NCBI GenBank assembly: GCA_029931535.1
Contig: JAQPZY010001664.1
Span: 3,812,501 to 3,876,500, forward strand
DNA from: Margaritifera margaritifera
Lineage: Eukaryota > Mollusca > Bivalvia > Unionida > Margaritiferidae
Direction: 5' to 3'
DNA length: 64,000 nt
The translations under genes were made by a program, and so were the position numbers. The stretch's first letter is position 1; every line of letters begins with the position of its first letter. This document shows positions 1,946 through 64,000 of this stretch, piece after piece. Under the pieces are notes generated by a model. It was not told where the DNA came from. It did not search any database and saw only the letters and a program-made list of their open reading frames with translations.

Positions 1946-2463
1946 TGACCATCTCTTGAATTTATAGAAATTTTGTCCTTGAAAACTATTAAAATGAGGC
2001 TTTGAAAGTCCATTAATTTTAAACTTGTGAATCTGTATGAACCCGGAATTAAATATATATTACTCCGACTCTTAAATCTGCCATTACCTGTTATCTTCAA
2101 CCATTGCTATTGCAGGCAAAGGTGTGCGCATCATGCAATTTACAGGCACACTTTCAGCTTGTCAGACTTTAATGAACAATACCTGCCACCTATTCAACTG
2201 CCACTGTACCGTATTACCACATTACTATCTAGAAAACAAACCCCAAAAAGTTTCACTATACTTTTTCATTTTTATCCTACTGCGTATGTAATCAGAGTGT
2301 GGTGCATTTGTCACAGTGTATGATTTTAATTTCTGATCAACAGGACTGCCAAAGTGCTGGGTATTCCAAGGTGACCTCTAACAGGAGGTGCTCTAAAGAG
2401 AACATTCAATTACCATGGCAATTGAGAAATACAGTGACCATCGGTAGTACAGTATGAAAGTTA

Positions 2464-2526
2464 TAAAAAAAAATCAGGAAATACTATGTAAAAAAAATAA
2501 ATCGGGAAATACTATGTAAAAGCAAG
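2464..2526. repeat. Two-copy direct repeat, about 27 bp, A-rich
   Basis: GGGAAATACTATGTAAAA and CAGGAAATACTATGTAAAA lie next to each other, separated by A runs. A local slippage-type duplication. Confidence 0.7.
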
Positions 2527-3706
2527 ATATTTAATAATAAAATTTCCACATTAAATTCATAAATTGAATCAAGATCTTTATAAGCCGGAGTTGGAAATCC
2601 ATTTAATAATTATGATTTATGATATTCTTGGGTTATATTACATGGCATATTTTATAGTTAACGCCAATCCCCGTAAACTTGAATTGTATGCCCCATGTCT
2701 AGAAAACACCTTTTATGAATTATAAGCGATGACAGGCTTCATTAACTTGCAGTTATACTACTGATTTAAGAACACACACTGAAACAAAAATCACGAGTTT
2801 GAAAATACACCCTTGATGGGCCCACCACAAGTTAGATAAAAGTTTTTATTGATGAGCGTCAGTCATGTCACCAATTCTGTTAGTATTGTTTAAATTGTGA
2901 AGCAGATGATTTGTATACAGACATTGTGGTCGTCACGATTTTATGATTGAAAAGTACAAACAAGGGATTGGAACTGGATATGGTATGAATGAGATTTGAT
3001 CACTTACTTGAATTTGTACATGGCAAGGAAATCTACGATTTTGTTTACTCTAAATAGTTATTCTTCAAATTTTAAATATTCATGGCTATGCGAACTTCGT
3101 GACATTATGTTTACATGCAGGTTATTCAGATGCTACACATGGTGACATCACTGAACAAAAATATTTAAATGTCATGGTAATAGGCATACAGTGGTAATAG
3201 GACATGCCACTATATATCATATATAAATTCAACACATGTTTCAAGCATTTTTCATGCAATTTTCAGTATAAACTTAAAAATTACCAATAGTTCTCAACAT
3301 AAAATGCTCTGATTTTATATGATGTGCTATGATAATGAGTAAGGCATGATTATCTCAGCTCTTGCGATAGGTCAGTTGATTCATATTACCTGTGTTGATA
3401 TTGGTATATGCATATTATCATGAAAAAGGAACATGCTTATCAATCACCCACAATTTATATTCATCTTGTGTATCCTGTTTGATGTTCCATATTACCCAAA
3501 CCTTCCAAGACATGAGTATATTTGATACTTTTATTCTTATTATTTGAAAATGTGATATTTGTACAGCCTTATCACATACTTGAAAATCCTCATTTGTTCT
3601 TTTTTAAAACTCATATTACATTGTTATCAAAGACAAAAATTGGCATTATAAGATGTTCAGGGACAGAGAATTCTCAAGTACTCTCTTTTACAATTTTTTC
3701 TTACAG

Positions 3707-3811
3707 TGCTGGGACAATATTTTGGCACCCGTTGACCTTCCATCAGAAGCTTTGAAGGAAGCCTGGAATTCTGAAGCAGAGAAATACCTCAACTGCATGC
3801 TTAGAGGCGAG
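3707..3811 (+). CDS. Internal exon candidate, RNF213-like gene
   Basis: A 105-bp exon candidate, preceded by a pyrimidine-rich tract ending TTCTTACAG and followed by GAG|GTAATT, a good donor. Only one frame is open across it (35 codons, phase 0 in and out); it reads from CWDNILAPVDLPSEALKEAW to a LNCMLRGE end. Acidic, helical composition suits the N-terminal arm or stalk of an RNF213-type ligase, but this exon alone would not identify the gene. The call rests on its strand and its position upstream of the better exons. The next candidate exon (8540) enters in phase 1, so at least one exon between them is missing or this exon belongs elsewhere. A truncated LTR begins only about 50 bp downstream. 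Confidence 0.5.
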
Positions 3812-3936
3812 GTAATTTATGAAAATTTATATGACTATATTTAAGTAAGTGGCATGCAGTGAAGCAGAATATCCACACAAAATGAACCAATCTCGTTTAT
3901 GACCTCTCAGCTGACAAACTATGCAAGAATCCCAAG

Positions 3937-3943
3937 CACAGCA
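3937..3943 (+). repeat. Target site duplication of SINE (left)
   Basis: CACAGCA occurs here and again at 6608-6614, directly flanking the SINE. The undisturbed second LTR copy (7624-8491) aligns across this junction without the insertion. Confidence 0.8.
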
Positions 3944-3954
3944 GGGGCCCCGGG

Positions 3955-3965
3955 TGGCCGAGTGG
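3955..3965 (+). promoter_or_regulatory. Pol III A box of SINE
   Basis: TGGCCGAGTGG matches the A box of leucine-type tRNA genes. Its partner B box is at 6426-6436, about 2.46 kb away because of the hAT insertion, compared with roughly 60 bp before insertion. Confidence 0.75.
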
Positions 3966-3972
3966 TCTAAGG

Positions 3973-6373
3973 CAGTGGTCCCCAACCTTTTTATCGCTGC
4001 GGACTGGTCAACGTTTGATAATTTTACCGCGGCCCGCTGAGGGGGGGACGTTGATTGTTTATATTTTAGATTGTTTTGATTTAATAATTTTAATTTAATT
4101 GTATTTAAACATGCCTTCAAAATAAAATACAGTTACACCAAAAAATGAATATAAAGTGATTTAACATTTTAACTCACTAGAACGCTAAATCAATGAGAAC
4201 CCTGAGCTTCTTTCTTTGCAACGAGACGGTTCCATCTGGGGGTAATAGGAGACAATGACACCCGAAGTGTGTTGCTTATGTCCAGTTTATTCCGTTGTTT
4301 TGTTTTGGTTGCTGTCATTGCAGAAAACCCCGCTTCACACAGATAGGATGTCGGAAATGGCAGTAGGGATTTAAGTGCTGTAGTGGCAATCTCAGGGTAT
4401 TCCGCCATGACTTTAATCCAGAACACCGGCAGAGTTGTTGTCTCAAACGTAGTTTTAAGGCCGCCGTCATTTGCAATCTCCAGCAGTTGATCTTCTTCTT
4501 GCACAGACATGCTAGATTCGCCTGGTTTGTTGACAAATGGGTCGCAGATCCATTCCTTACCAGTTCGTGGGTCTTTTGTGGTTGGGAAGTAGCGCTCGAA
4601 CTCTTTTAAAAGCAAAGACAGGTGATCGTGCACCAACTGGGAGAATGAATGCTCAGGCTCAGTCTCGCCTAAAATCCCCGCTAATGTCTGAAACATGTCC
4701 AAAATGCCTCTGTTCACGCGCCGTCCCCACAAGTCCAGTTTGGCTTTGAATGCAGCTACTTTGTCTGCCAACTTGAAAACAGTTGTCATTTTCCCCTGAA
4801 GGCACAGATTGAGTTCATTGAGCAGGCTGAATATGTCACACAGGTAAGCCAGTTTTGCGACCCATACCTTGTCACTGAAATGTGCTGCCAGCGGTGACTT
4901 CTTTTCTGAGAGAAATCTTTGCAATGGCTCTCGTAATTCAAATACTCTGGTTAGCGATTTTCCTCTGGATAACCATCTTATTTCTGTGTGTAAGAGAAGG
5001 CATCTGTGCTCTGCGTCCATCTCCTCACAAATCTGCTCAAACAGGCGCGAGTTAAGGGCGTGTGCTTTGATGTGGTTAATAACTTTAACGACATCAATCA
5101 ATACGCTGTTAAATTCCGGTTACATTTTTCGGCTTGCCAGCATTTCCCTGTGAATGATACAATGCGTAGATTCACTCTCAGGTGCAACCTCGTTAATCCG
5201 AGCAGTTAAACCAGACAGTCGTCCGGTCATGGCAGCAGCTCCGTCTGTGCATATGCCGACACAAAAGGACCATTTTAGTTGTCCTGATATATAACCATCC
5301 AGTGACTTGAACAGTTCTGCTCCTGTGGTGTTGGTTGGCAAAGATAGTGCACATAACAAATCCTCATGCACATCCTCCTGATATAGATATCGCACATAAA
5401 CAAGTAGTATTGCCTTGTTGTCGATATCTGTAGATTCGTCAACCTGGAGTGCGTACCACGGTGATGTATTAATCCTCTCCAACAATTGTGTCTCAATGTC
5501 TTCGGCTATTTCCTCAATGCGCCTAGTCACAGTGCTAGCCGACAAAGGCACATGTGCTATCTTTTCCACAGCAGCCTCTCCTAGAAGTTCACGGCAAATG
5601 TCTTTAGTGGAGGGCAAGATCAATTCTTCACCGATAGTGAATGGCTTTTTAGCCTTAGCAATACGGTTAGCCACCAAATATGATGCTCTCAGTGCATTCT
5701 CCTTTATTGATGTGGTGGCCCTCATAAATTTCTTCTGTCCTTCGTGTTCCCGTTTTTTTCTTTCAAAATACTCCAGGGGCTTGTCTTTTAATCCAGGGTG
5801 CTTGGCGTTCAAGTCGCGAAGCAGTTTTGAAGGTTTCATTGCCTCATTAGAGAGCTGGTCGCCGCAAACTATGCAGAGCGGTTTTGGTGTGTGGGAATCA
5901 CTTGTCCCGATAAATCCATATTTCAGGTAGGACTCATGGTATTGTCTGTTAAAAGTTTTATGTTTCTTTGATGTTGAAGGTTCTTCTGCTGTCTCTTCAC
6001 TGGGCCTTTTCTTTTTCCCAAGGAAACTTTCTAACGACGTCTGTTTCGTACTCATTTTTGCTAATTTGTGGGTTAAATTTGAGCAAACACAATATACACG
6101 TACACCAAGCACAGTTAAACATGAGAAAGTACCGGTGAATAGAGAGAAAACCGCCCCGATATCACGATATTTTGCGCATGCGCGGTATTGGTGCGGCTTT
6201 AGGTGACGTCTCTCAGCTCCCGGTTAACCTCTCGTCCATGGAAAGTCGCACAAACCCGAGAGAAATACACCACAGTAAATAAAATGGAAATAATTTAATG
6301 TTCCTTGGGCGGCCCGGTACCATTTGATCCACGGACCGGTACCGGTCCGCGGCCTGGGGGTTGGGGACCACTG
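3973..6373 (-). mobile_element. ZBED-type hAT DNA transposon, nearly complete
   Basis: A 2401-bp element with perfect 15-bp terminal inverted repeats, CAGTGGTCCCCAACC at 3973-3987 and its complement at 6359-6373. Both sides carry the same 8-bp duplication GTCTAAGG (3965-3972 and 6374-6381), the length expected of hAT transposition. Subterminal CCGCGGCC-type GC-rich sequence occurs at both ends. One transposase gene fills the interior on the minus strand. Perfect ends and duplication plus a single stop codon suggest recent insertion relative to its surroundings. Confidence 0.95.
4190..6055 (-). pseudogene. hAT transposase, ZBED5-like, one in-frame stop
   Basis: One continuous minus-strand frame from the likely start at 6055 (MSTKQTSLESFLGKKKRP) to the stop at 4190, broken only by TAA at 5120-5122; both halves are in the same frame. 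It is about 620 residues, near the usual size of ZBED5/SCAND3-like hAT transposases. The frame also opens farther upstream at 6112, but the family normally starts at the inner Met. Counted from 6112, a BED-type zinc finger gives C80 and C83, but the first expected His is Asp100 (LLRDLNAKHP), leaving H105. RNase H-fold acidic residues appear as ALQVDESTD (D225) and GICTDGAAAM (D290). The C-terminal half has the hAT dimerisation segment around LPFPTSYLCEAGFSAM. The nonsense codon lies just after a HREMLASRKM segment. The product would bind transposon ends in the nucleus and excise the element; this copy cannot make full-length protein without readthrough. Confidence 0.9.
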
Positions 6374-9945: not shown

Positions 9946-10730
9946 ATGCCATTCTACTATTTTAAAAATTAATTATTAATTGACAACAAGCTGACATACT
10001 ACCTTGAAAGTACCTAGCAATTAACTTGTATTTCTGGTCAAGTCTGATGGTAAAGTTTTATATTTGATCAGGTCCTAAAACAGGTGTTGGAGGGTGATAA
10101 ATGTTAATTGTGTTGCTGGTATCTTTATTCTTTTTAAATGGGGCTTAGGCTACCCATATTGTGTTCTGAAAGTCTTAAATGCATTGACACAACTCCACAC
10201 AGTGTAGTTGAAAAGTGCATGATATGAGGGACTGATACAATGTCTATAGCACAATACCCTGGGGCAATCATTTGAATCCAAGGCTTTGATAAGTCCAGGA
10301 CATCAGCTTTCATACCTCTTTTTGTCTTGTGCTTTGTGTCTACAGGGTGTTTCAACAATTAGGAAAACATAATGACCAAATAATTACATGGGATGATTAG
10401 CAAACAGTAATTTCATCTCATTTGTCTGCCATTTTAGGATTTCTGATATATTTATCAGGGATGATTCCAACCATAAAATCAGTGGACCCCATGCCTATAA
10501 TTGGAAAGTTCTATTGCAAAATGAGTTATTTGGGGAATTGTTAAAACATAAGCTTCTTTTGTCTAATCTCCTATTCTTCATCACTCGTGTAATTTTTGTT
10601 GCAATTTTTAGCTCTTGCAGAAGGCTTTGTTCATCATTGGGAACAATGTTAAAGTTGTGTTAAAGTTCTTGAAAGTCATATATCTACGACATTTGTTGCT
10701 GCATTCAACTGAAACTTTGGTATATTATTA

Positions 10731-10743
10731 TTTCTACTGGTCA

Positions 10744-10745
<2 letters not shown>
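10731..10745 (+). mobile_element. Left piece of family A head, split by LINE
   Basis: TTTCTACTGGTCATA resembles the family A head TTTTTAGCTCTACTGGCC seen at 14571, and the missing continuation (AGAAGAGCTTATGGG) resumes at 13294 on the other side of the LINE. This suggests the LINE inserted into the head of element A1. Confidence 0.5.
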
Positions 10746-10774
<29 letters not shown>

Positions 10775-10968
10775 TCTTTATTTAACTAGGGTAGCTCAAT
10801 TAGATTACAGATGTATCTAGTCTCCCTTGAGGCCCTCAGCTGTTTTAAAAAAAAAAACACAGATTACCATGCACAGAGACAAAACAATTGGAGTAGAGAC
10901 AGGAGATGTTACATGGTGTATTGACATGTAAAGGTCAATTAAAAATCATGTTTCAAATATTTGAGATA

Positions 10969-11880
10969 TTATTCTTTAAAACTTTCAACAGAAGTGGCTG
11001 ATCTAACAGATGTGGGCAAGGAGTTCCATATCTTTGCTCCATAATATTTAAGACAATATCGAAATTGTTCAGTCTTGGGTTTGGGGAGTTTCACGTGGCC
11101 ATGTATGGTCGACTGTAAGGCATATGATCTGTGGATTTCATCAAAAATTTCTCTCATGTATTCAGGCATTTTCCAATTTATACATTTGTAGACAAGTACT
11201 GCCTTTTGAAAGTTAATTCTGTCATTTATTTGAAGCCATTTTAGTTCATGGAAAAGGGTTTTAGATGGTGTGTCAAAAGGAGCATCCAGTATTAGGCGTG
11301 CTACTCTCTTTTGTATCTTGTTAATTCTTTCTAATTGGCTTTTGGGGCAGTTTCCCCATATTGTCAAACAGTAATCAATAACTGGCAGAATGTAGGCATT
11401 ATAGTACATTATTCTAGTTTGTATGGATAGGTACTTCTTAATTTTACCTAGTGAAGTTATTTTACTTGATAAAGACCTACAGACATATTCAATATGCTTG
11501 TCCCACTTTAAATCATTTTCAGCTATCACTCCTAGGAGTTTTTCTTCTTTGACATTTTCAATGAGTTGCCCATTTATTGTCAGATTTAGCAGATTGTCAG
11601 AAGTTGAATGTTTCATTGATGAGGCTATTACCATACATTTTGTTTTTGTTTCATTTATAACCATTTTATTTTGATTTGACCACTTCTCAATGTTTCTTAA
11701 ATCAGTATCTAGTAGTGCTTCAACAGTAGCTATATTATTTCCTGAAGCAGTTACAGTAGCATCATCTGCAAATAAGTCTATATTTGATTGCTTTGTCCAC
11801 AGTGGAAGGTCATTAATGAAAATAAGAAAAAGCAGTGGGCCTAAAGTAGACCCCTGGGGGACACCATGTTTAATTTCCAT
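10969..11880 (-). pseudogene. LINE reverse transcriptase, C-terminal half
   Basis: A 303-codon open stretch beginning at the conserved GVPQGSTLGPLLFLIFIND block (RT motif B region), followed by LFADDATV, the YXDD-equivalent catalytic FADD about 37 residues in. After that come WSNQNKMVINETKTK and KLLGVI (motifs D/E), and a long C-terminal domain with RINKIQKRVARLIL and FHELKWLQINDRI. These are the hallmarks of Jockey/CR1/Rex-group LINEs. The product would copy element RNA at a nicked target; this copy lacks its N-terminal part in frame. Confidence 0.9.
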
Positions 11881-12183
11881 GGAGATGGACTGAACATTAC
11901 CAATAGCAGTTCTTTGTGTTCTGTTGCATAGGTAGGATGAAAACCAGTTTAAGGCATTACTATCAGATTTATAGTATTTTAGCTAGGATAAAAGAACATC
12001 ATGATTGACTAAATCAAAAGCCTTCCTAAAGTCTAGGAATAATACACCTGTTAGACTCCCCTTATTGATTTCCTGCAGCCAACAGTCTGTGAGTTTTGTT
12101 AAAGCTGTTTGACATGAATGATCCTTTCGAAAACCTGATTGTTCTTTGTGAAAGAGTGAGAATGTTCTGAAGTAATGGTATAC

Positions 12184-12618
12184 TTACTTAGCAATCAGTT
12201 TCTCAAAGATTTTTGATAATGTAAGTAGAATGGAAATAGGTCTGAAGTTTCCTGGGTCCAACTTAGAGCCTTTCTTATATATTGGGGTTACTTTTGCTTC
12301 TTTAAATTTATCTGGGAAAACACCAGACTGGATACTCTTGTTAATGAGGTTAGCTATAGATTGAGATATAACAGGTGCAGCAAATTTTAGGGCCATTGGG
12401 CCTATTTCATCAAGGCCAGTGGATTTTTTAACATTTAACTTCACAAGGGTACAGTATACATCATAGTCACTTACATTAACTATAGAAAATTCAAGTGGAG
12501 GATCAGCTGGAATTTTGGCATTTACATAATTGAGAAGCTTTTCATTATCAATGGTCTCTGTGTTCTCTCTGACATAATTATTTGCTACATTTGTAAAGTA
12601 GTGGTTGAAGATGTGCAC
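12184..12618 (-). pseudogene. LINE reverse transcriptase, N-terminal part
   Basis: A 144-codon stretch with IPADPPLEFSIVNVSDYDV, KKSTGLDEIGPMALKFAA and TPIYKKGSKLDPGNFRPIS, the usual RT domain 0 to motif A approach in this LINE group. The frame ends at a stop at 12184, right after FEKLIAK, and the rest of the fingers region (11890-12180) is out of frame. Confidence 0.88.
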
Positions 12619-12784
12619 AATTTCATGTACACTTGTAGCTGAGTCTCCATTGTGGTCTACAGTAATTGGGTAGGTGGAATACTTTTTGAAGAGGGACTAA
12701 GATCTTTTAGATACTGCCATAATGTGCTTGTATTTGTAGCACTCCCAATAGCTTGATTATAATAGTTTTTCTTAGCTTTATGTA

Positions 12785-13293
12785 TTAGGCTGCTTGTGAT
12801 GTTTCGCCATTCTTATTGTTATCCCAGTCTTTGATTCTATGAAACTTATCTCTTTTGTGTCTTGCTTCTTTTATCTCATTGGTCGTCCATTTAGGTTGAT
12901 GCTTATGTTTAAAACATTTTGTTTTACAAGGAGCATGTCTGTCCAATACATGGATAAAAAGTTTATACCAAGCTTCCCAGGCAGTATTGACATTTGGAAC
13001 ATTAGTGGTATCATTAAAAGGCATCAAATACAGGTCAGTAAGGAAGTTTTCTTCATGAAAGTTGCGAAAGTCTCTGTATTTTATCTCACAATAGTGTTTA
13101 ATGGTAAGTTTAGGCACATGTCTAGTGATACATACAGGATAATGGTCACTGATTGCAAACACAGGTACACAAATTTCACTTACATTTTCTACTTTATTTG
13201 TGTATATATGGTCAATTAATGTTGAACTGTCACTCATGATTCTAGTCGGACTGCTAATGACCTGAGTGAAATTACCAGTTTGGAAACTGAAGA
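12785..13293 (-). pseudogene. LINE endonuclease domain, C-terminal end
   Basis: The frame is open from 13293 and reads NFTQVISSPTRI then STLIDHIYTNK and VFAISDHYPVCIT. The SDHYPV motif contains the catalytic Asp-His of apurinic-type (EEP) endonucleases. It continues into the linker with APCKTKCFKHKHQPKWTTNE. Everything upstream is missing because of 5' truncation. Confidence 0.88.
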
Positions 13294-14530
13294 TCAGAAG
13301 AGCTTATGGGATGGCCTGTTGTTCATAATCCATCATCCATCTGTTGTCAGTCTGTTTCCCGTCTGTCATCCATCTGTCCATTAGCAACAGTTTGTTATTC
13401 CTACTCTTCCTAAACTGCTTGGAGGATTGACATGAAACTTTGTACACACATTCACCCCAAGGTCTAGTTGGTCCTAAATGAAAATGGTGCCGCTTGGACA
13501 TCCAATATGGGTGCAATAATGGCTGACTTGAAAATCTTGTTATACCCCCTCCCCAGATCGGATGGTCATATCAGCATTGGGTTTTCTTTGGAAGACTTCT
13601 TATGATGTCTTAAGTTGGTCTTAAAATGAAAATTGTTTCAGTCTGAAGCTCAGTATGGTGGTCATTTTAGAAATCTTGTTATTGCTGCTTATCCTGGATG
13701 GATGGATGGACATGGGAGTTTCACTAAAAGACTTTGTAAGAAGTCTAGTTGATCCAGATACAAAAACAGTGCCGATCTGACATCCAGTATGGCTGCCACA
13801 GCAGCCATCTTGTAAATCTTATTATTGCTATTCCTCCTGAATGGAAAATCTTATTGATATTGGATTTTCACCAGAAAACTTCATATGATGTCAAGTTGGT
13901 CCTAAATGTAAATTTTGCTGATCTGACCCCAAATATGGTGGTCATCTTGAAAATTGTGTTATTGCTACATATCCAGGATGGTCATAATGATGTGGGGATT
14001 TCACCAAATGACTTCCTGTGATGTCTAGTTGGCCTGAAATGAAATTGGTGCCGATCTGATAACTAGTTTGGCTGCCACCACGACAGCTATCTTCATAATT
14101 GTATCTGTATTCCTCCAAAGCGGAAAGTCATATTGACATGGGGTTTTCACCAGAAGACTTCTTATGGCGTCTAGTTGATCCTAAACGAAAACTATGCTGA
14201 TCTGACAGCTAATATCACTGCTATGAAAGTCTTGTAATTGCTACTCTCCCTGAATGGATGGTCATTTTGACATGGGTTTATACCAAATGACTTCTTATGA
14301 TATCTAGTTGGTCCTAATGGTGCTGATCTGTCATCCAATAGGGCTTTTATGTTATTGCTACTTCTTCAGAATGGATGGTCATATTGACATAGGCTTTCTC
14401 ATCAAAAGACCTGTTATGTTGTCTAGTTGGTCCTAAATGAAATAGTTTGCTTATCATGCATCCAATATGGCCACCATGGAAAATCCTTTTGGCCAGTAGA
14501 GTACTGGTCCCATCGAGGGTCTGTTGTTTA
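13294..14530 (+). mobile_element. Family A tandem-array element A1
   Basis: Head remnant AGAAGAGCTTATGGGATGGC at the left, a body of roughly seven to eight diverged units of about 150 bp, and a tail GGCCAGTAGAGTACTGGTCC at 14491. Each unit carries CCAATATGGCNNCCA, AGCCATCTTGAAAATCTTGT, TATTGCTACTCCTCCTGAAT, GGTCATATTGACATGGGG and TTTTCACCAGAAGACTTC. No protein is encoded; short frames through the units are by-products. The LINE at 10743 interrupts the head. Confidence 0.75.
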
Positions 14531-14570
14531 CAGTAAGTGTTGTCCCTTTTTATACCAGATGAATATATAA

Positions 14571-15800
14571 TTTTTAGCTCTACTGGCCATAGTCCAGAAT
14601 AGCTTATGGGATGGCCTGTTGTCCATCATCCGATATCCGTCCATATATTAGCACAAGTTTGTTATTGCTAGTCCTCCTAAACTACTTGGAGCATTGCTAT
14701 GAAACTTTACCCATACATTCATCCCAAGGCATAGCTGGTCCCAAATGAAAATGGTGCTGCTCAGACAGCCAGTTTAGCTGCCACAGCAGCCATCTTCAAA
14801 ATAAATTTTGTTCTTGCTACTCTGCCTGAATAGATGGTCATATAAAGCTGGGGTTTTCACTAAAAGATTTCTTATGATGTCTAGTTGATCCTAAATGATA
14901 ATGATGCCGATGTGACATCAAATATGCATGCCATGGCAGCCATCTTGAAAATCTTGTTATTGCTACTACTCTTGAATGGAAAGTCATATTGACATGGGGT
15001 TTTCACCAGAAGACTTTTTATGATGTCTAGTTGGTTCTTAATGAAAATGGATCTGCTTGGACATCCAATATGGCCACCACAGTGATCATGTTGAAAACTT
15101 GTTATAGATACTCCTCCTGAATTGATGGTCATAAAAACATGTTTTTTTTTTACTAAAAGACTTGTTATGATGTTTAGTTGGTCCTAAATGAAAATGGTTC
15201 TGATCTGACATCCAATATGGCTACCACAGATTCCATCTTGAAAATCTTGTTATTGCTACTCCCCTGAACAGAAAGTGATCACCATGAGGTTTTCACTGGA
15301 AGACTTCTTGTGGTGCTTAGTTGGTCTTAAATGAAAATGGTGATGGTCTGATATTCAATATGGCCACCACTTTTGCCGTCTTGAAAATCTTACAATGACT
15401 TCTCCTAGATGGAAACTGATATCAACATTGGCTTATCAGCAGATGTCTTGTTATGATATTTGGTTGGTACTAAATGAAAATGGTCCAATCTGACATCCAG
15501 TTACATGGCCACTATGGCAGCTATCCGAATGAAAATGGTGCTGATTTGATATCAACACGAGGTTTTTACCAGTAGTCTTCTAAATGTGTCTAGTTTATTC
15601 TGAATGAAAATGGTGCCATTCTTACATTGAATATTGCTACCACAGTGGCTAATTTGAAAATCTTTTTACTGAAAAATATAATAGAGGGTTTCAAGACTCT
15701 AGTTAAAAAGAAGAAATGGTTTTATCTTGAATTAATGGGAATTCTTTTTGGACAATGGAGCATCAGTCCTTTTAAGGGACTTTTGTTTCTTGTTTTGTAG
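14571..15800 (+). mobile_element. Family A tandem-array element A2
   Basis: Complete by the criteria seen here: head TTTTTAGCTCTACTGGCCAT at 14571, then TTATGGGATGGCCTGTTGTC, an opening unit mentioning ACTACTTGGAGCATTGC, a set of 150-bp units, and a tail with AAGAAGAAATGG then CAATGGAGCATCAGTCC and AGGGACTTTTGTTTCTTG. The head GCTCTACTGGCC is complementary to the tail GGCCAGTAGAGC found in sister copies. Confidence 0.8.
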
Positions 15801-15808
15801 AGAAATTG

Positions 15809-16992
15809 ACTTTTCTTAGCTGAAGTACTTATGAGATGGCTTGTCCATCATCTGTTGTCCATCTGTCTTCTGTCTGTCCATTTGCACAAGTTTGTTATTG
15901 TTACTTGTCCGAACCTACTTTGTTTGTTGTCACTACTCCTAAACTACTTGGAAAATTGCCATGAAACTTTAAACATGAATTCATCCCAAAGTCAAGTTGG
16001 TCCTAAATGAAAATGGTGCTTTTTGAACATCCAGTATAGCCAGCATTGCAGCCATCATAAAAATCTTGTTAACACTATTCTGTCTGAATGGATGGTCATA
16101 TCAACATGCAGTGTTGACTAAAAGACTTTTTATGATGTCTTGTTCCTAAATGAAAATGGTGCCGATGTGACCTCCAGTATGGCCACTATGGCAGTCATCT
16201 TGAAAAGCTTGTTATAGCTGTTCCTCCTGAACTGAAAGTCATATCAACATGGGGTTTTCATCAGAAGACTTCTTATGATCCTGAATGAAAATTGTGCCAC
16301 TTGGACCCCAAATTGGTGGCCATGGATGCCGTCTTGAAAATCTTGTGATAGCTGCTCCTCCTGGATAAATGATCATATTAGCATTGGGTTTTCACTAAAA
16401 GAGTTCTCATGCTGTTTAGTTGGCCCTAAATGAAAATGGCGCTAATCTGACATCCAATATAGCCACCATGTCAGACATCGTAAAAATATTGTTATAAGCA
16501 CTCCATATGGTGTCTGGTTGGTCCTAAATAAAAGTAATTCCAATCTGACATTCGATATGGCAACCATGGTGGCCATTTTGATAAATGTGTTATCACTACG
16601 CCTGAATGTATGTTCATATTGATATTTTATTTTCACCAAAAGACTTCTTATCATATCTAGTTGGTCCTACATGAAAATAGTGCTGATCTTACATTCAGCA
16701 TGGCTGCCACAATGACTCCTTAGAACATCGTTTTGTTAGCTACTCCTCCTGAATGCATAGTTATATTGCATATAGGATTTTCACCAAAAGACTGCTTGTG
16801 ATGCCTAGTTGGTCTTAAATAAAAAAGGTGCCAATCTGTCATCCAGTATGGTGACCTTAGTGGCCATCTTGAAAGTCTTGTTATAGCCAAGATTATCAGG
16901 GATGGTTTCAATACTCAGCAGTTAAAGAGAAGAAATGGTGTTTTCTTGGATTTCTGGATATTCTTTTTGGACAGTAGAGCATCAGTCCAGCT
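15809..16992 (+). mobile_element. Family A tandem-array element A3
   Basis: Starts TTTTCTTAGCTGAAGTACTT directly after the tail of A2 and ends ATTCTTTTTGGACAGTAGAG then CATCAGTCCAG. Internal units are as in A1 and A2. Its pre-tail GATGGTTTCAATACTCAGCA then AGAGAAGAAATGG matches those at 15685 and 63440. Three copies in a row suggest repeated insertion or tandem amplification of the whole element. Confidence 0.78.
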
Positions 16993-18044: not shown

Positions 18045-18985
18045 TTTTTAGCTCACCTGGCCATAACGCCAAGTGATGTTATGGTATGGTCCTTCATCCA
18101 TCATGCATCATCCATTACCACCTTCATCTTCTTCTCCAAAACTGCTCAACAGAATTCATCCAAATTTCACAGGTGGCATCCTGGTGTTGGTCTATCTCTA
18201 GTTTATACCTATGATGCTGATCCACCAACAGATGTGGCCACTATTACTTAAAATAGATTTCTTTTTAAAAACAGCTTCTCATAAACTGCTTAACAGAATA
18301 TGACCAAATTTGACAGAAAGCATATTGGCATGAAGGTCTTTCAAAATTATACAAACGATGCCACTATGTTGTCACATTTGGTTGTTGATTTGTATAAAAG
18401 ATACCAATCTGCTGTCAGATAAGGTTGCCATTACTTCTCAAAAACCATTGAAAAGAATTTGACAAAATTTGTCATAAAGCATCTTAGCATGAAGGGTTTT
18501 CAGATTTATTTAAATGATGCCACTTTGTTGTCAAATATGGCTACCATTACTGAAAATATAAACACTTTAGAATTACTTTTTGCCAAAAACTGTTAAGCAG
18601 AATTTGACCAGATTTGACAGAAATCATACTGGCATGAAGGGCTTTCAGATTTGTAGAAATGTTGCAAATCTGCTATCAGATGTGGCCACAATTGCTAAAA
18701 AAAGACCTTTAAATGATTTTTTGAAAACTGCTCAATGATTTGGCCTCATAGTATTCGTATTTGACATTGGATGTTGATAATGATGAAATGTGTATGAAGA
18801 TGTCAACAAAAATGGAAAAGTCTTCAAACAGTTGTTTTCAGTCATATGCAATAAACAGTACTGGAAGAAATTTGTACAGAAAGCATCCTACTTAGCCAGA
18901 TTTCAAATCCAATTGCTTTTGTATTTGCCTATGAGACAGATATCAGTCGGGTGAGAGATCTCAAGTCCACTTGGGTCTCTTTTTT
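18045..18985 (+). mobile_element. Family B tandem-array element B1
   Basis: Head TTTTTAGCTCACCTGGCCAT at 18046; five to six diverged units of about 140 bp with AACAGAATTTGACCAAATTT, GACAGAAAGCATCCTGGCAT, GAAGGGCTTTCAGATTT, AAATGATGCCACTTTGTTGT and ATGGCTACCATTACTAAAA; tail CAGTCGGGTGAGAGATCTCA then GTCCACTTGGGTCTC. Head GCTCACCTGG and tail CGGGTGAG are complementary. It begins 65 bp after the donor at 17979. Confidence 0.8.
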
Positions 18986-51243: not shown

Positions 51244-52452
51244 GTAGGTATTTTTTTTATTTAGCTTACCTGGCTGCAGGGCTAAGTGAGCTTATGATTG
51301 GTCCCTTGTCCATCACCTGTTGATTGTTTCAATTGCTGTTTACAACTTCTTCTCAAAATCTGTTCAGCAGAATTTGACAAAATTTGACAGAAAGTGTTCT
51401 GGCATTAAGCTCTTTCCAACTTCTTCAGATTGTGCTGATCTGCCATCAGATATGGCTGCCGTTATTAAAAATTGAAAAACATTTAAACATCTTCTTCCAA
51501 AAAAAATACTCAATAGAAATTTACCAAATTTCAAAGAAAACATTCCAGCATGAAGGTTTTTCAAATTTGTTTGAATAATGCCACTCTGCAATCAGATATA
51601 GCCACCATTACTAAAAATAGAAAACCCTTAAATTAGTTCTCAAAATTTTTTCAACAGAATTTGATAAAATTTGACAACATTTAACAGAAAGCATCCAAGC
51701 ATTAAGTTTTTTTTAAGTTCAAATGATGCCTATCCACCATAAATATGGCCACTATTACTAAAAATAGAATAACCTTTAAATGCCTTCTCAAAAACTCCTC
51801 AACATAATTTAACCAACTTTGACAGCAAGCATCCTGGCATGAAAGTCTTTCAAGTTTGTTCAAATGATGCTGATCTGCCATCAAATATGGCTACGGTTAC
51901 TAAAAAAAGAAAAATCTTTAAACAACTTCTCTAAAACTGCTAACCGAATTTGTCTAAATTTGACAGAAAGCATCCTGACATAGATTGATTTCAGATTTGT
52001 ATAAACGGTGCTGATCTGCGATAAAATATGGCTACCATTACTAAAAATAGAACAAAATTTAAATCACTTGTCAAAAACCACTCAACAGAATTTGGCCAAA
52101 TTTGTGATAGAAAATTTTGTGCCTTAAATGCCTTTCAAAATTATTCAAAAGATGACAATCTGACATCAAATATGGGCACTGTTACTAAAAATATATTAAA
52201 AATAAAAACTTTAAATGACTTCTCAGAAAATGACTTCTCAGAAACTACTCATCAGAATATTAGTAATTTGACCCAAAAAAATAATTCAGGCATGAAGGGC
52301 TTTCAAATCTATACAAATGATGCCATTATGCCATTAAATATGGTCACTGTTACTAAATATACAATATTCTTTGAATGATTTCTTAAAAATAACTCAACAG
52401 AATCTGACCAAATTTAACTAAAGGCATGTTGGCACGAAGGGCTTTAAAGTTT

Positions 52453-52460
52453 ATACAAAT
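52453..52460 (+). repeat. 8-bp target duplication (left)
   Basis: ATACAAAT, repeated at 54247-54254. Uninterrupted units elsewhere read TTTATACAAATGATGCC-like, i.e. the empty site. Confidence 0.9.
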
Positions 52461-56799: not shown

Positions 56800-57361
56800 T
56801 TTTTAGCTCATAGACCAGAAGAGCTTTTGAGATGGCCTGTTGTCCATCGTGTCCATTAGCACAAGTTTGTTATTGTTACATCTCCTAAATTTTCTTGGAC
56901 TTGATCCTAAATGAAAATGGTGCTGCTTGGACATCCAATATGGCTGCCACAGCCATCTTGCAAATCTTGTTATTGTTACTGCTCTTGAATGGATCGTCAT
57001 ATCAACATGAGGTTTTCACGATTATGATGTTTAGTTGGTCGTAAATGAAAAAGGTGCTGATCTGATGTCCAGTATGGCCACCATGGCAGCCATCTTGAAA
57101 ATCTTATCTCAACACCTCCTGAATGGAAAGTCAGATCAACAAGGGGTTTTTACCAGAAGACTTTTTATGATATGATCCAAATGAAAATGGTACTGCTTGG
57201 ACATCTCATGTGGCAGTCACAGTGGCCATCTTGAAAATCTTGTTATCACTACTCCTCCAGAATGGTAAGTCAAATTGACATATAGTTCTGACCACAAGAC
57301 TTCTTATGATTTCTAGATCATCCTAATGCAAATGGTGCCACTTGGGGTTTTCACTAAAAGA

Positions 57362-57475
57362 TTTATGGTTTTTGTTTTTGTAGGTTTTAACATATTATTG
57401 ACTATATCATGCTGAGGTAATGGGAGGTAAGTGCTTTTCCCAAGGACACACAGAATCAGCCCACTTAGAGGATTG
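57362..57475 (-). mobile_element. Truncated SINE, minus strand
   Basis: On the complement: a CTTGGGAAAAGCACTTACC stretch, CTCAGCATGATATAG, AATATGTTAAAACC and a TACAAAAAC tail: the 3' two thirds of the SINE seen at 7082 and 46512. The tRNA-like head is missing. Confidence 0.65.
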
Positions 57476-57617
57476 TCATGAAAGTTTGCACACACATTCA
57501 TCCTAAGGTCTATTTGGTTCATAATGAAAATGGTGCCACTCGGATATAAAATATAGCTCTCACAGCAGCCATCTTAAAAATCACATTTTTAATAGCATTA
57601 ATACCTTAATTCTTCAT

Positions 57618-61965: not shown

Positions 61966-63430
61966 AACTTTATATCGCTACTCCTCCTGAATGGGTGGGC
62001 ATATCAATGTAAAAGACTTCTTAAAATGTCTAATTGTTCCTAAATGAAATGGTGCCAATCTGACATCCAATATGACTGCCATGGCAGCAATCTTGAAAAT
62101 CGTATCACTGTTCCTCTTGAATGGAGAGTCATATTGACGTGGGGTTTTTGATGATAAGGCTTGTGATGTTTGGTTGGTCCAAAATGAAATTGGTGCCAAT
62201 CTGACCATTAATATGACCGCCATGGTGGCCATATTGAAAATCTTCTTATTGATACTCCTGCTTGATGCATGCCCATATCATTTCACCAAAAGATTTCTTA
62301 TTGGGTTTACATGGTCCTCTATGAGAATACAGCTGATCTAACATAACATTCAGTATGGTCAACATGGCAGCCATCTTGAAAATCTTATTATGGCTATTCC
62401 TCCTAATGGAAAGTCAGATTGACAGGAGATTTTCACTGGAAGAATTCTTATTATCTCTAGTTGATACTAAATGAAAATTATGCACCACAGCAGCCATCTT
62501 AAAAATTATGTTAATATCATTCCTCCTGAATGGAAAGTTATATTGACATTGGATTTTTACCAGAAGACTTTTTATGTTATCTAGTTGGTATTAAATGAAA
62601 ATTGTGTTGAGTATGGCCTTCACAGTGGCCATATTGAAAATCTTGATATTACCACTTCTGAATGGAAAGTCATTTCAACATTGGGTTTTCACCAAAAGAC
62701 TAATTATGATGTCTAGCTGAACCTAAGTCAAAATGGTGCCAATCTGACTTCAGATATGGCCTCCATTATGGCCATTTTGAAAGTCTTGTTCTCATTACTC
62801 CTCCTGGATGGTTATCAACATGAGGTTTTCACCAAAAGACTTATCATAATGTCTAGTTGGTAATAAATAAAATTGGTGCTGATCTGACATCCAACATGGC
62901 CACTATGGCAGCTATCTTGAAAATCTTGTTATTGCTACTTATCCTGAATGGATGATCAGATTGACTTCTTGAGGTGTCTTGTTGAATCTAAGTTAAAATT
63001 TAACCGATCTTAGGCCCAATATGGCCATCATTGTGGCTATCTTGAAAATCTTATTATTGCTACTCCTTCTGAAGGGATAGTCGTGTTGACATTGGGTTTT
63101 CACAAAAGATTTCATATGATATCTAGTTGATCTGATATGAAAATGGTGGTAATCCTAATCCAATATAGCCACCATAATGGCCATCTATAAAACCTTGTTT
63201 CACTACTTCTCCTCAATGGATGGTCACATTGAGATGGGATTTTCACCAAAAGTCTTCTGATGATATCTATTTGGTCTGAAATGAAAATCTTGGATGGTCA
63301 TATTGAGATGGGGTTTTCACCAAAAGACTTTTTTTATGATGTCAAGTTGGTCCTAGATGAAAATAGTGCAGATCTTATGTCTAATATGGCTACCGTGGTT
63401 GCCATCTTGAAAATCTTGCTATTGCTGAAC
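61966..63430 (+). repeat. Family A unit array, right part of A4
   Basis: About nine to ten units of roughly 150 bp with CAATCTGACATCCAATATG, GCAGCCATCTTGAAAATCTT, TATTGCTACTCCTCCTGAAT, GGATTTTCACCAGAAGACTT and TATGATGTCTAGTTGGTCCT. The frames at 61978-62232 and 63260-63550 are read-through of units. Confidence 0.8.
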
Positions 63431-63544
63431 AATATCAGAGATGGTTTCAACAGTCAGAAGTTGAAAAGAACAAATGATCTTATATTGGATTCCTGGAAAT
63501 TCTTTTCGGTCAGTAGAGCACCAGTCCCTTTGAGGAAGCTTTGT

Positions 63545-64000
63545 TGTTAGAGTTATTGCCCTTTTTTGTCTTGTAGCTTAATGCGTTGTATGACACAATC
63601 ACGTTAGCGCAACTAATCCTGCAGGTTTTGATGGATTGCCTTGAAACTTAGTAAATATTATGGTCTTGACCTGAAGATGCATATCTCAACAAATCACTTT
63701 GCTCATGCAATTTATTTTGCAGCTATTGCCCTTTATGTCTTGTAGCTGAATGTAGTGACTGACACAATCTCGTTAGCACAACTAGTCCTGCATTTGGTTT
63801 CTATGAAACTTTGTAAATATTAAAGGTACCAATTGAATATACAGATATCATCAAATCACTCTGGTCCTGATATTTTTTTTATGTTAATGCTCTTTTTTTC
63901 TTGTTGCTCAATGCAGTGTACAACACAACCTCATTAGCACAACTAGTCCCACAGTGTTTGATGGATTGGCATGAAACTTGATAAATATTATGGTCTTGAC
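63545..64000 (+). repeat. Family E repeat array, continues past window
   Basis: Nearly three units of about 165 bp: TTATTGCCCTTTTTTGTCTT, GTAGCTTAATGCGTTGTATG, ACACAATCACGTTAGCGCAA, CTAATCCTGCAGGTTTTGAT, GGATTGCCTTGAAACTTAGT, AAATATTATGGTCTTGACCT, GAAGATGCATATCTCAACAA. It joins by homology to 56640-56799. Confidence 0.78.

Follow-up and report, generated by a model that had tools for sequence, protein, structure and literature searches.

Within a 64,000-nt stretch of the genome of Margaritifera margaritifera (contig JAQPZY010001664.1, positions 3,812,501 to 3,876,500 of the forward strand; hereafter the window), three arrays of tandem repeats follow one another at 13.3-17.0 kb. What kind of sequence carries these arrays, where does it begin and end, and how might it have spread? 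The initial annotation grouped them as family A and proposed that each array, bounded by a fixed head and a complementary tail, is mobile. The three array copies are indeed members of one dispersed family, and the arrays are the interior of an old, abundant mobile element. We consider it very probable that family A is a family of non-autonomous Helentrons (HINEs) with satellite-like central repeats. The HINE-type element itself is already known from oysters and flies; family A adds a family, not a kind.

Ends and overall anatomy

An alignment of 33 tail and 24 head matches places the 5' boundary between a T-run and AGCTCTACTGGCCATAGACCAGAAGAGCT, and the 3' boundary directly after GGCCAGTAGAGCATCAGTCCCTTCGAGGGACTCTTGTT. 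The sample consists of the 28 loci with an exact match to the 12-mer GGCCAGTAGAGC that come first along the contigs, a choice biased toward copies in which this 12-mer is intact. A family-A head or tail scores at least 25 bits in 26 of the 28 (the exceptions are L020 and L024), a recovery that is not independent, the models having been derived from the same loci and the window. The ends are in register over the aligned matches; the lowest-scoring ones are degraded, and the weakest rows (e.g., W 16968, L026 6469, and L019 3218) lack full ends. Head and tail could be paired in 13 elements of 1.07-2.58 kb, in which conserved termini enclose a variable number of units, as had been described for the window.

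From left to right, the layout comprises a T-run, a 5' subterminal inverted repeat (subTIR) with a local inverted repeat (IR), a GTCC-rich stretch, n units of ~142 bp, a pre-tail module, a 3' subTIR, a palindrome, and TCTTGTT, after which host DNA resumes. The 5' start reads AGCTCTACTGGCC-ATA-GACCAGAAGAGCT behind the T-run, which is the subterminal repeat followed by its local complement. The 3' finish reads GGCCAGTAGAGC-ATCA-GTCCCTTCGAGGGAC-TCTTGTT, which is the 3' subterminal repeat followed by the palindrome. Of these subterminal inverted repeats, which in HINEs measure 11-15 bp, one lies next to the 5' end (GCTCTACTGGCC is one base from the T-run) and one is set back from the 3' end (GGCCAGTAGAGC begins 38 bases before it). 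Beyond the 3' repeat stand 26 further conserved bases that include the palindrome, so the inverted repeat is not terminal on that side.

The complementarity of head and tail is confirmed: the two 12-mers are reverse complements, and the genome (2.45 Gb) contains GGCCAGTAGAGC 950+951 times but the reversed pattern 28+40 times. The element had been taken to end at CAGTCC, and this end must be moved. The consensus continues for 18 bases past CAGTCC, completing the palindrome and ending in TCTTGTT. Because the real 3' end had not been reached and the 5' IR had been missed, the terminal structure seemed to differ from known ones; with the true ends, the layout is that of HINEs as given in published accounts (PMC4067079, PMC7492417).

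The 5' IR stands directly behind the head as its complement, with 9-13 of 13 positions pairing in 13 heads (mean 10.4), and is followed by a GTCY-like microsatellite stretch (head consensus GTCCGTCCATCATCCGTC, by inspection). DNA folding, performed on typed variants of head and tail, gave -8.2 kcal/mol for the 5' hairpin (6 of 200 shuffles as good) and -13.9 for its other variant (0 of 200), and -5.9 kcal/mol for the 3' end (6 of 200) and -8.9 for its other variant (3 of 200). The arms of the head covary barely (10.38 vs. 10.10 of 13 pairs; 22 of 1000 shuffles as high), and covariation between the arms of the 3' palindrome is absent within the family (4.62 vs. 4.66 of 6 pairs; 799 of 1000 shuffles as high).

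Both ends are abundant in the genome. The 22-base head TTAGCTCTACTGGCCATAGACC, with at most 2 mismatches, has 10,595 matches (5,225+5,370), and the exact 3' end AGTCCCTTNRAGGGACTCTTGTT, palindrome included, has 3,041 (1,530+1,511), with reversed controls of 0+0 in each case; these totals are counts of ends, not of complete elements.

Copies within the window

Models derived from other loci alone (24 tails, 4 heads) recover the family-A copies of the window with best E values of 7e-11 to 7e-56, compared with a best E of 0.023 in a control of 20 Markov shuffles x 2 models. The head model also matches 18,040 at 5e-8, where a second family lies (see below), and gives weaker matches within arrays. 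The window holds three successive plus-strand copies; in addition, a piece at 56.8 kb retains a head, and another piece, which ends at 63,545, retains a tail. The features are as follows.

10725..10745, + strand: copy 1, 5' piece, with a T-rich run, degraded 5' subTIR TTTCTACTGGTC and ATA; a LINE separates it from the remainder of the copy, at a boundary that the ATA repeat makes ambiguous
10746..13290, - strand: retrotransposon of LINE type lying inside the 5' hairpin of copy 1, with (ATA)n at its 3' end; ORF 10969-11982 matches RVT_1
13291..14528, + strand: copy 1, remainder, with 5' IR GATCAGAAGAGC, ATCC/GTCC-like stretch, array, 3' subTIR (14491-14502), palindrome region (14507-14521) and end CTGTTGTT
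14576..15787, + strand: copy 2, complete element, 1212 bp
14577..14588, + strand: copy 2, 5' subTIR GCTCTACTGGCC
14592..14603, + strand: copy 2, 5' IR GTCCAGAATAGC, a near-complement of the subTIR
14733..15670, + strand: copy 2, central array of ~142-bp units, final match ending at unit position 79
15671..15749, + strand: copy 2, pre-tail module, not repeated
15750..15761, + strand: copy 2, 3' subTIR GGACAATGGAGC, mutated
15766..15780, + strand: copy 2, 3' palindrome GTCCTTTTAAGGGAC
15817..16988, + strand: copy 3, subTIR lost at the 5' end, 3' end broken inside the palindrome; subTIR at 16969-16980, then ATCAGTCC
56800..57600, + strand: further family-A copy, head partly deleted, array degraded, no tail match
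61966..63545, + strand: further family-A copy with array, pre-tail, 3' subTIR (63508-63519) and a 3' end that reaches 63545; its start does not match a head

Copy 1 had been assigned a start at 13,294, and its true start is near 10,725. It seemed to begin at the later position because a minus-strand LINE sits inside its 5' hairpin. To the left of the (ATA)n end of the LINE stands TTTCTACTGGTCATA, which, when joined to the sequence from 13,291 onwards, gives an alignment of ~45 columns with the head consensus. The score of the 5' piece against the head consensus was reached by 0 of 2000 random 50-mers from the window (known element regions skipped). The opposite nesting, with copy 1 inserted into the LINE, was rejected, as the joined flanks place the LINE inside copy 1. 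Further frames of the LINE lie at 12184-12696 and 12785-13303, and one of its three frames (that with RVT_1) has a Pfam match.

The proposal that each copy starts with the head is correct for copy 2 (14,576-15,787); the head of copy 1 is split by the LINE, and that of copy 3 is without its subTIR. The terminal 18 bases after CAGTCC are present with mutations in copies 1 and 2, and copy 3 stops inside the palindrome at 16,988. The three copies lie head-to-tail in one orientation, with T-rich spacers of 47 (14529-14575) and ~30 (15788-15816) bases between them.

Other elements share the window. A second family with the same layout is present at 18046-18130 and 51258-52460, with heads TTTTTAGCTCACCTGGCC... 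and TTTAGCTTACCTGGCTGCAGGGCTAAGTGAGCT, TCC/ATCC-rich stretches behind the heads, and then ~141-bp units of different sequence. This is probably another HINE family with subTIR GCTCACCTGGCC. At 4190-6223 on the minus strand, two long adjoining open frames of 367 and 309 aa resemble, by eye, a relic of a hAT- or ZMYM-type transposase; these frames gave no Pfam match at E<=0.001.

The central array

The units had been estimated at about 150 bp. They are real tandem units, and their length is ~142 bp: a 142-position unit profile tiles the interior of all 15 elements compared (the 13 paired elements plus window copies 1 and 3). Their orientation is constant, with 132 plus-strand matches versus 45 minus-strand matches, each of the latter at most 68 bases long and at most 22.0 bits. 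Gaps of several hundred bases or more interrupt the array in some elements, e.g., L018, L019, and L021. In 10 of the 15 elements, the final unit match ends within unit positions 77-83; the others end at 44, 51, 61, 70, and 104. The idea that array boundaries fall at random was rejected.

Among 97 near-full units, identity is 70.9% (0.709) within an element and 70.4% (0.704) between elements, and the best-matching unit lies in the same element for 7 of the 97 versus 5.9 expected. First units of different elements are 73.1% identical, and last full units 68.3%. The equal identity within and between elements implies that the arrays were probably near-homogeneous at insertion and were not homogenized afterwards. 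Together with the common tail phase, these unit identities support the view, already advanced in the initial annotation, that the whole array is mobile as one element. Units are 81.2% identical to their own consensus. The sampled copies are old, given that the pre-tail module (27 tails) is 84.7% identical to its consensus.

A comparison of units distinguishes array growth in a source element from growth after insertion. We tentatively entertain the further idea that expansion or shortening of the array might be part of rolling-circle transposition itself. The source element would rebuild near-homogeneous arrays and release them in register, its ends staying fixed; no homogenization would follow insertion, and the Helentron source behind the whole process would by now have died out in this genome. 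Such coupling, which we regard as doubtful, would explain why arrays share a tail phase, why they vary in unit number, and why units diverge equally within and between elements.

Insertion sites and alternative classifications

The element is flanked by T residues. Among heads scoring at least 22, T occupies position -1 in 17 of 17 and position -2 in 16 of 17. At the final two positions of the element, T is found in 24 and 25 of the 28 tails scoring at least 24, counts that lean toward T, the tails being aligned to a core ending in TT. T-richness apart, the bases adjoining the ends differ among copies by eye. Flanks of the 13 paired elements share 4.08 bases versus 3.35 in shuffled pairs (sd 0.30; 11 of 1000 as high), and the contributors to this excess are T-runs or poly-T and one 9-base match in L019. 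No target duplication of constant length was found among the 13 flank pairs, but the small excess leaves room for a duplication.

Of 26 flank queries taken from the 13 paired elements, each at most 300 bases long, 9 match other sampled loci, mostly through arrays or other repeats that lie in the flanks. Two minus-strand elements, in L006 and L025, have left flanks whose similarity extends nearly to the junction. A third copy of this shared repeat, without an element, is present to the right of the L025 element, and its match to the L006 flank ends exactly at the start of the L006 element, with other sequence beyond. This third copy is a candidate empty site for L006, on one side only. Either two insertions into one target repeat or a single insertion that underwent duplication afterwards could explain the pair. 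A second potential empty-site case, L027, whose left flank is LINE-like by eye, was rejected when its right flank proved to be another abundant repeat; none of the 40 rows scored, of 3005 candidates, spans the L027 junction. That repeat starts ~13 bases from the junction and is 91-95% identical in 38 of the 41 matches listed.

These data bear on the class of the element. The complementary 12-base sequences near both ends could be true TIRs bound by a DDE transposase, in which case family A would be a cut-and-paste transposon of the MITE type and its target would be duplicated. The weak excess of flank similarity could be read in this way, and pearl, a comparable bivalve element, was first named a MITE (PMC7492417). 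We nevertheless judge a MITE very unlikely, because the 3' repeat is followed by 26 conserved bases with a palindrome, no flank duplication of constant length was found in the 13 elements, and T flanks with a 5' IR are features of HINEs (PMC4067079, PMC7492417).

True Helitrons begin with 5' TC, end with 3' CTRR after a hairpin, and insert between A and T. A 3' hairpin is present in family A as well, the rolling-circle class would be the same either way, and the Rep relics described below could be of either type. The ends AGCTC...TCTTGTT, with subTIRs, a 5' IR, and T flanks, are in contrast those of the Helentron layout (PMC4067079), making assignment to true Helitrons highly improbable. Least credible of all is an ordinary dispersed satellite, with arrays spread by recombination or segmental duplication and common flanks carried as passengers: its tandem units of satellite-like length, the classical satellites formed by related oyster repeats (PMC7492417), and the left flank common to L006 and L025 are outweighed by the sharp common termini, the tail phase shared by 10 of 15 arrays, and the more than 10,000 head matches versus 0 in the control.

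Search for an autonomous partner

The initial annotation suggested looking for an autonomous relative between the same termini, and this search did not yield one. No autonomous Helentron with family-A ends was found in this genome by searches whose counts are lower bounds. PF14214 has at least 3 matches, all with stops. A Rep query, taken as a fragment from one PF14214 place, gave at least 9 matches at at least 7 places, itself included (16 candidates scored). Stops interrupt 7 of the other 8 matches, and the eighth is a fragment of 50 residues. At E<=1, the six Rep loci read as 10-kb stretches (L032, L033, and L040-L043) showed neither heads nor tails nor units of family A; the seventh place, C740, lies outside this set. 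A link between family A and the inspected Rep relics was rejected on this basis, and no intact enzyme source for family A was found in this genome.

Decayed Helitron-type Rep sequences are located at L042 3065-6200, L032 5810-6558 (minus strand), and L041 883-9032. Helicase-like pieces are recognizable by eye in L042 and L041, and those in L041 are separated by a long frame (2024-6070) that appears gypsy-like by eye.

Proposed mechanism

Where the initial annotation named neither mechanism nor enzyme, the observed anatomy, flanks, copy number, and array statistics can now be set beside a candidate. We infer rolling-circle transposition by a Helentron protein acting in trans because every one of the following traits is a published HINE feature (PMC4067079, PMC7492417): the subterminal repeats, the 5' IR, the GTCC-rich stretch, the central repeats, the 3' palindrome, and the T flanks. 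The enzyme would be a Rep/helicase (with an endonuclease in typical Helentrons) supplied by an autonomous Helentron and recognizing family-A ends. It would nick within T-rich sequence, and one strand would be copied out from the 5' end. Termination would occur at the 3' subTIR and palindrome, where copying would halt. Strand transfer would then join the copied strand to a new T-rich target without duplicating that target. Unit number may be altered by slippage or recombination in the arrays.

Comparison with known systems

Among the closest published parallels by layout is Cg_HINE from the oyster Crassostrea gigas (Vojvoda Zeljko et al. 2020; PMC7492417). That report describes an 11-12 bp 5' subTIR with an IR 1-12 bp behind it, a GTCY-type microsatellite in several elements, central repeats mostly of 140-180 bp, and a 3' subTIR with a palindrome, all as in family A. 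Cg_HINE, like family A, occupies T-rich sites, and in Cg_HINE these are described as not duplicated. The two belong to different genomes and are likened by described layout, not letter by letter. The missing partner is also shared: the authors could relate none of ten autonomous oyster elements to Cg_HINE, which leaves oyster and mussel families with the same gap.

HINE-Mo, DINE-1, and Helentrons (Thomas et al. 2014; PMC4067079) resemble family A, as described, through subTIRs of 12-15 bp (~2-4 nt inside the 5' end and 38-60 nt inside the 3' end), a 3' palindrome, at least two T residues on each side, and tandem repeats in some copies. HINE-Mo is without a 5' IR, whereas DINE-1 and family A carry one. 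Some families of the HINE-Mo/DINE-1 type have been linked to autonomous Helentrons, unlike family A.

The initial annotation had also pointed to a likeness with Helitron-related bivalve elements of the pearl/DTC84 type, and the HINE layout bears this out (PMC4067079, PMC7492417). As described, pearl (Crassostrea, Anadara), DTC84 (Donax), and MgE (Mytilus) share with family A short arrays between fixed modules; pearl carries up to six ~160-bp repeats, compared with the ~142-bp units of family A (PMC7492417, PMC5139131). Pearl is counted as a HINE and has been re-classed as a non-autonomous Helentron, with DTC84 and MgE of comparable architecture (PMC7492417). A literature search for Helentrons in freshwater mussels found no match, and from this and related literature searches family A is probably undescribed. 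Its exact ends are now usable for annotation, and satellite repeats borne by HINEs, known from oysters and other bivalves, are hereby extended to a freshwater mussel genome.
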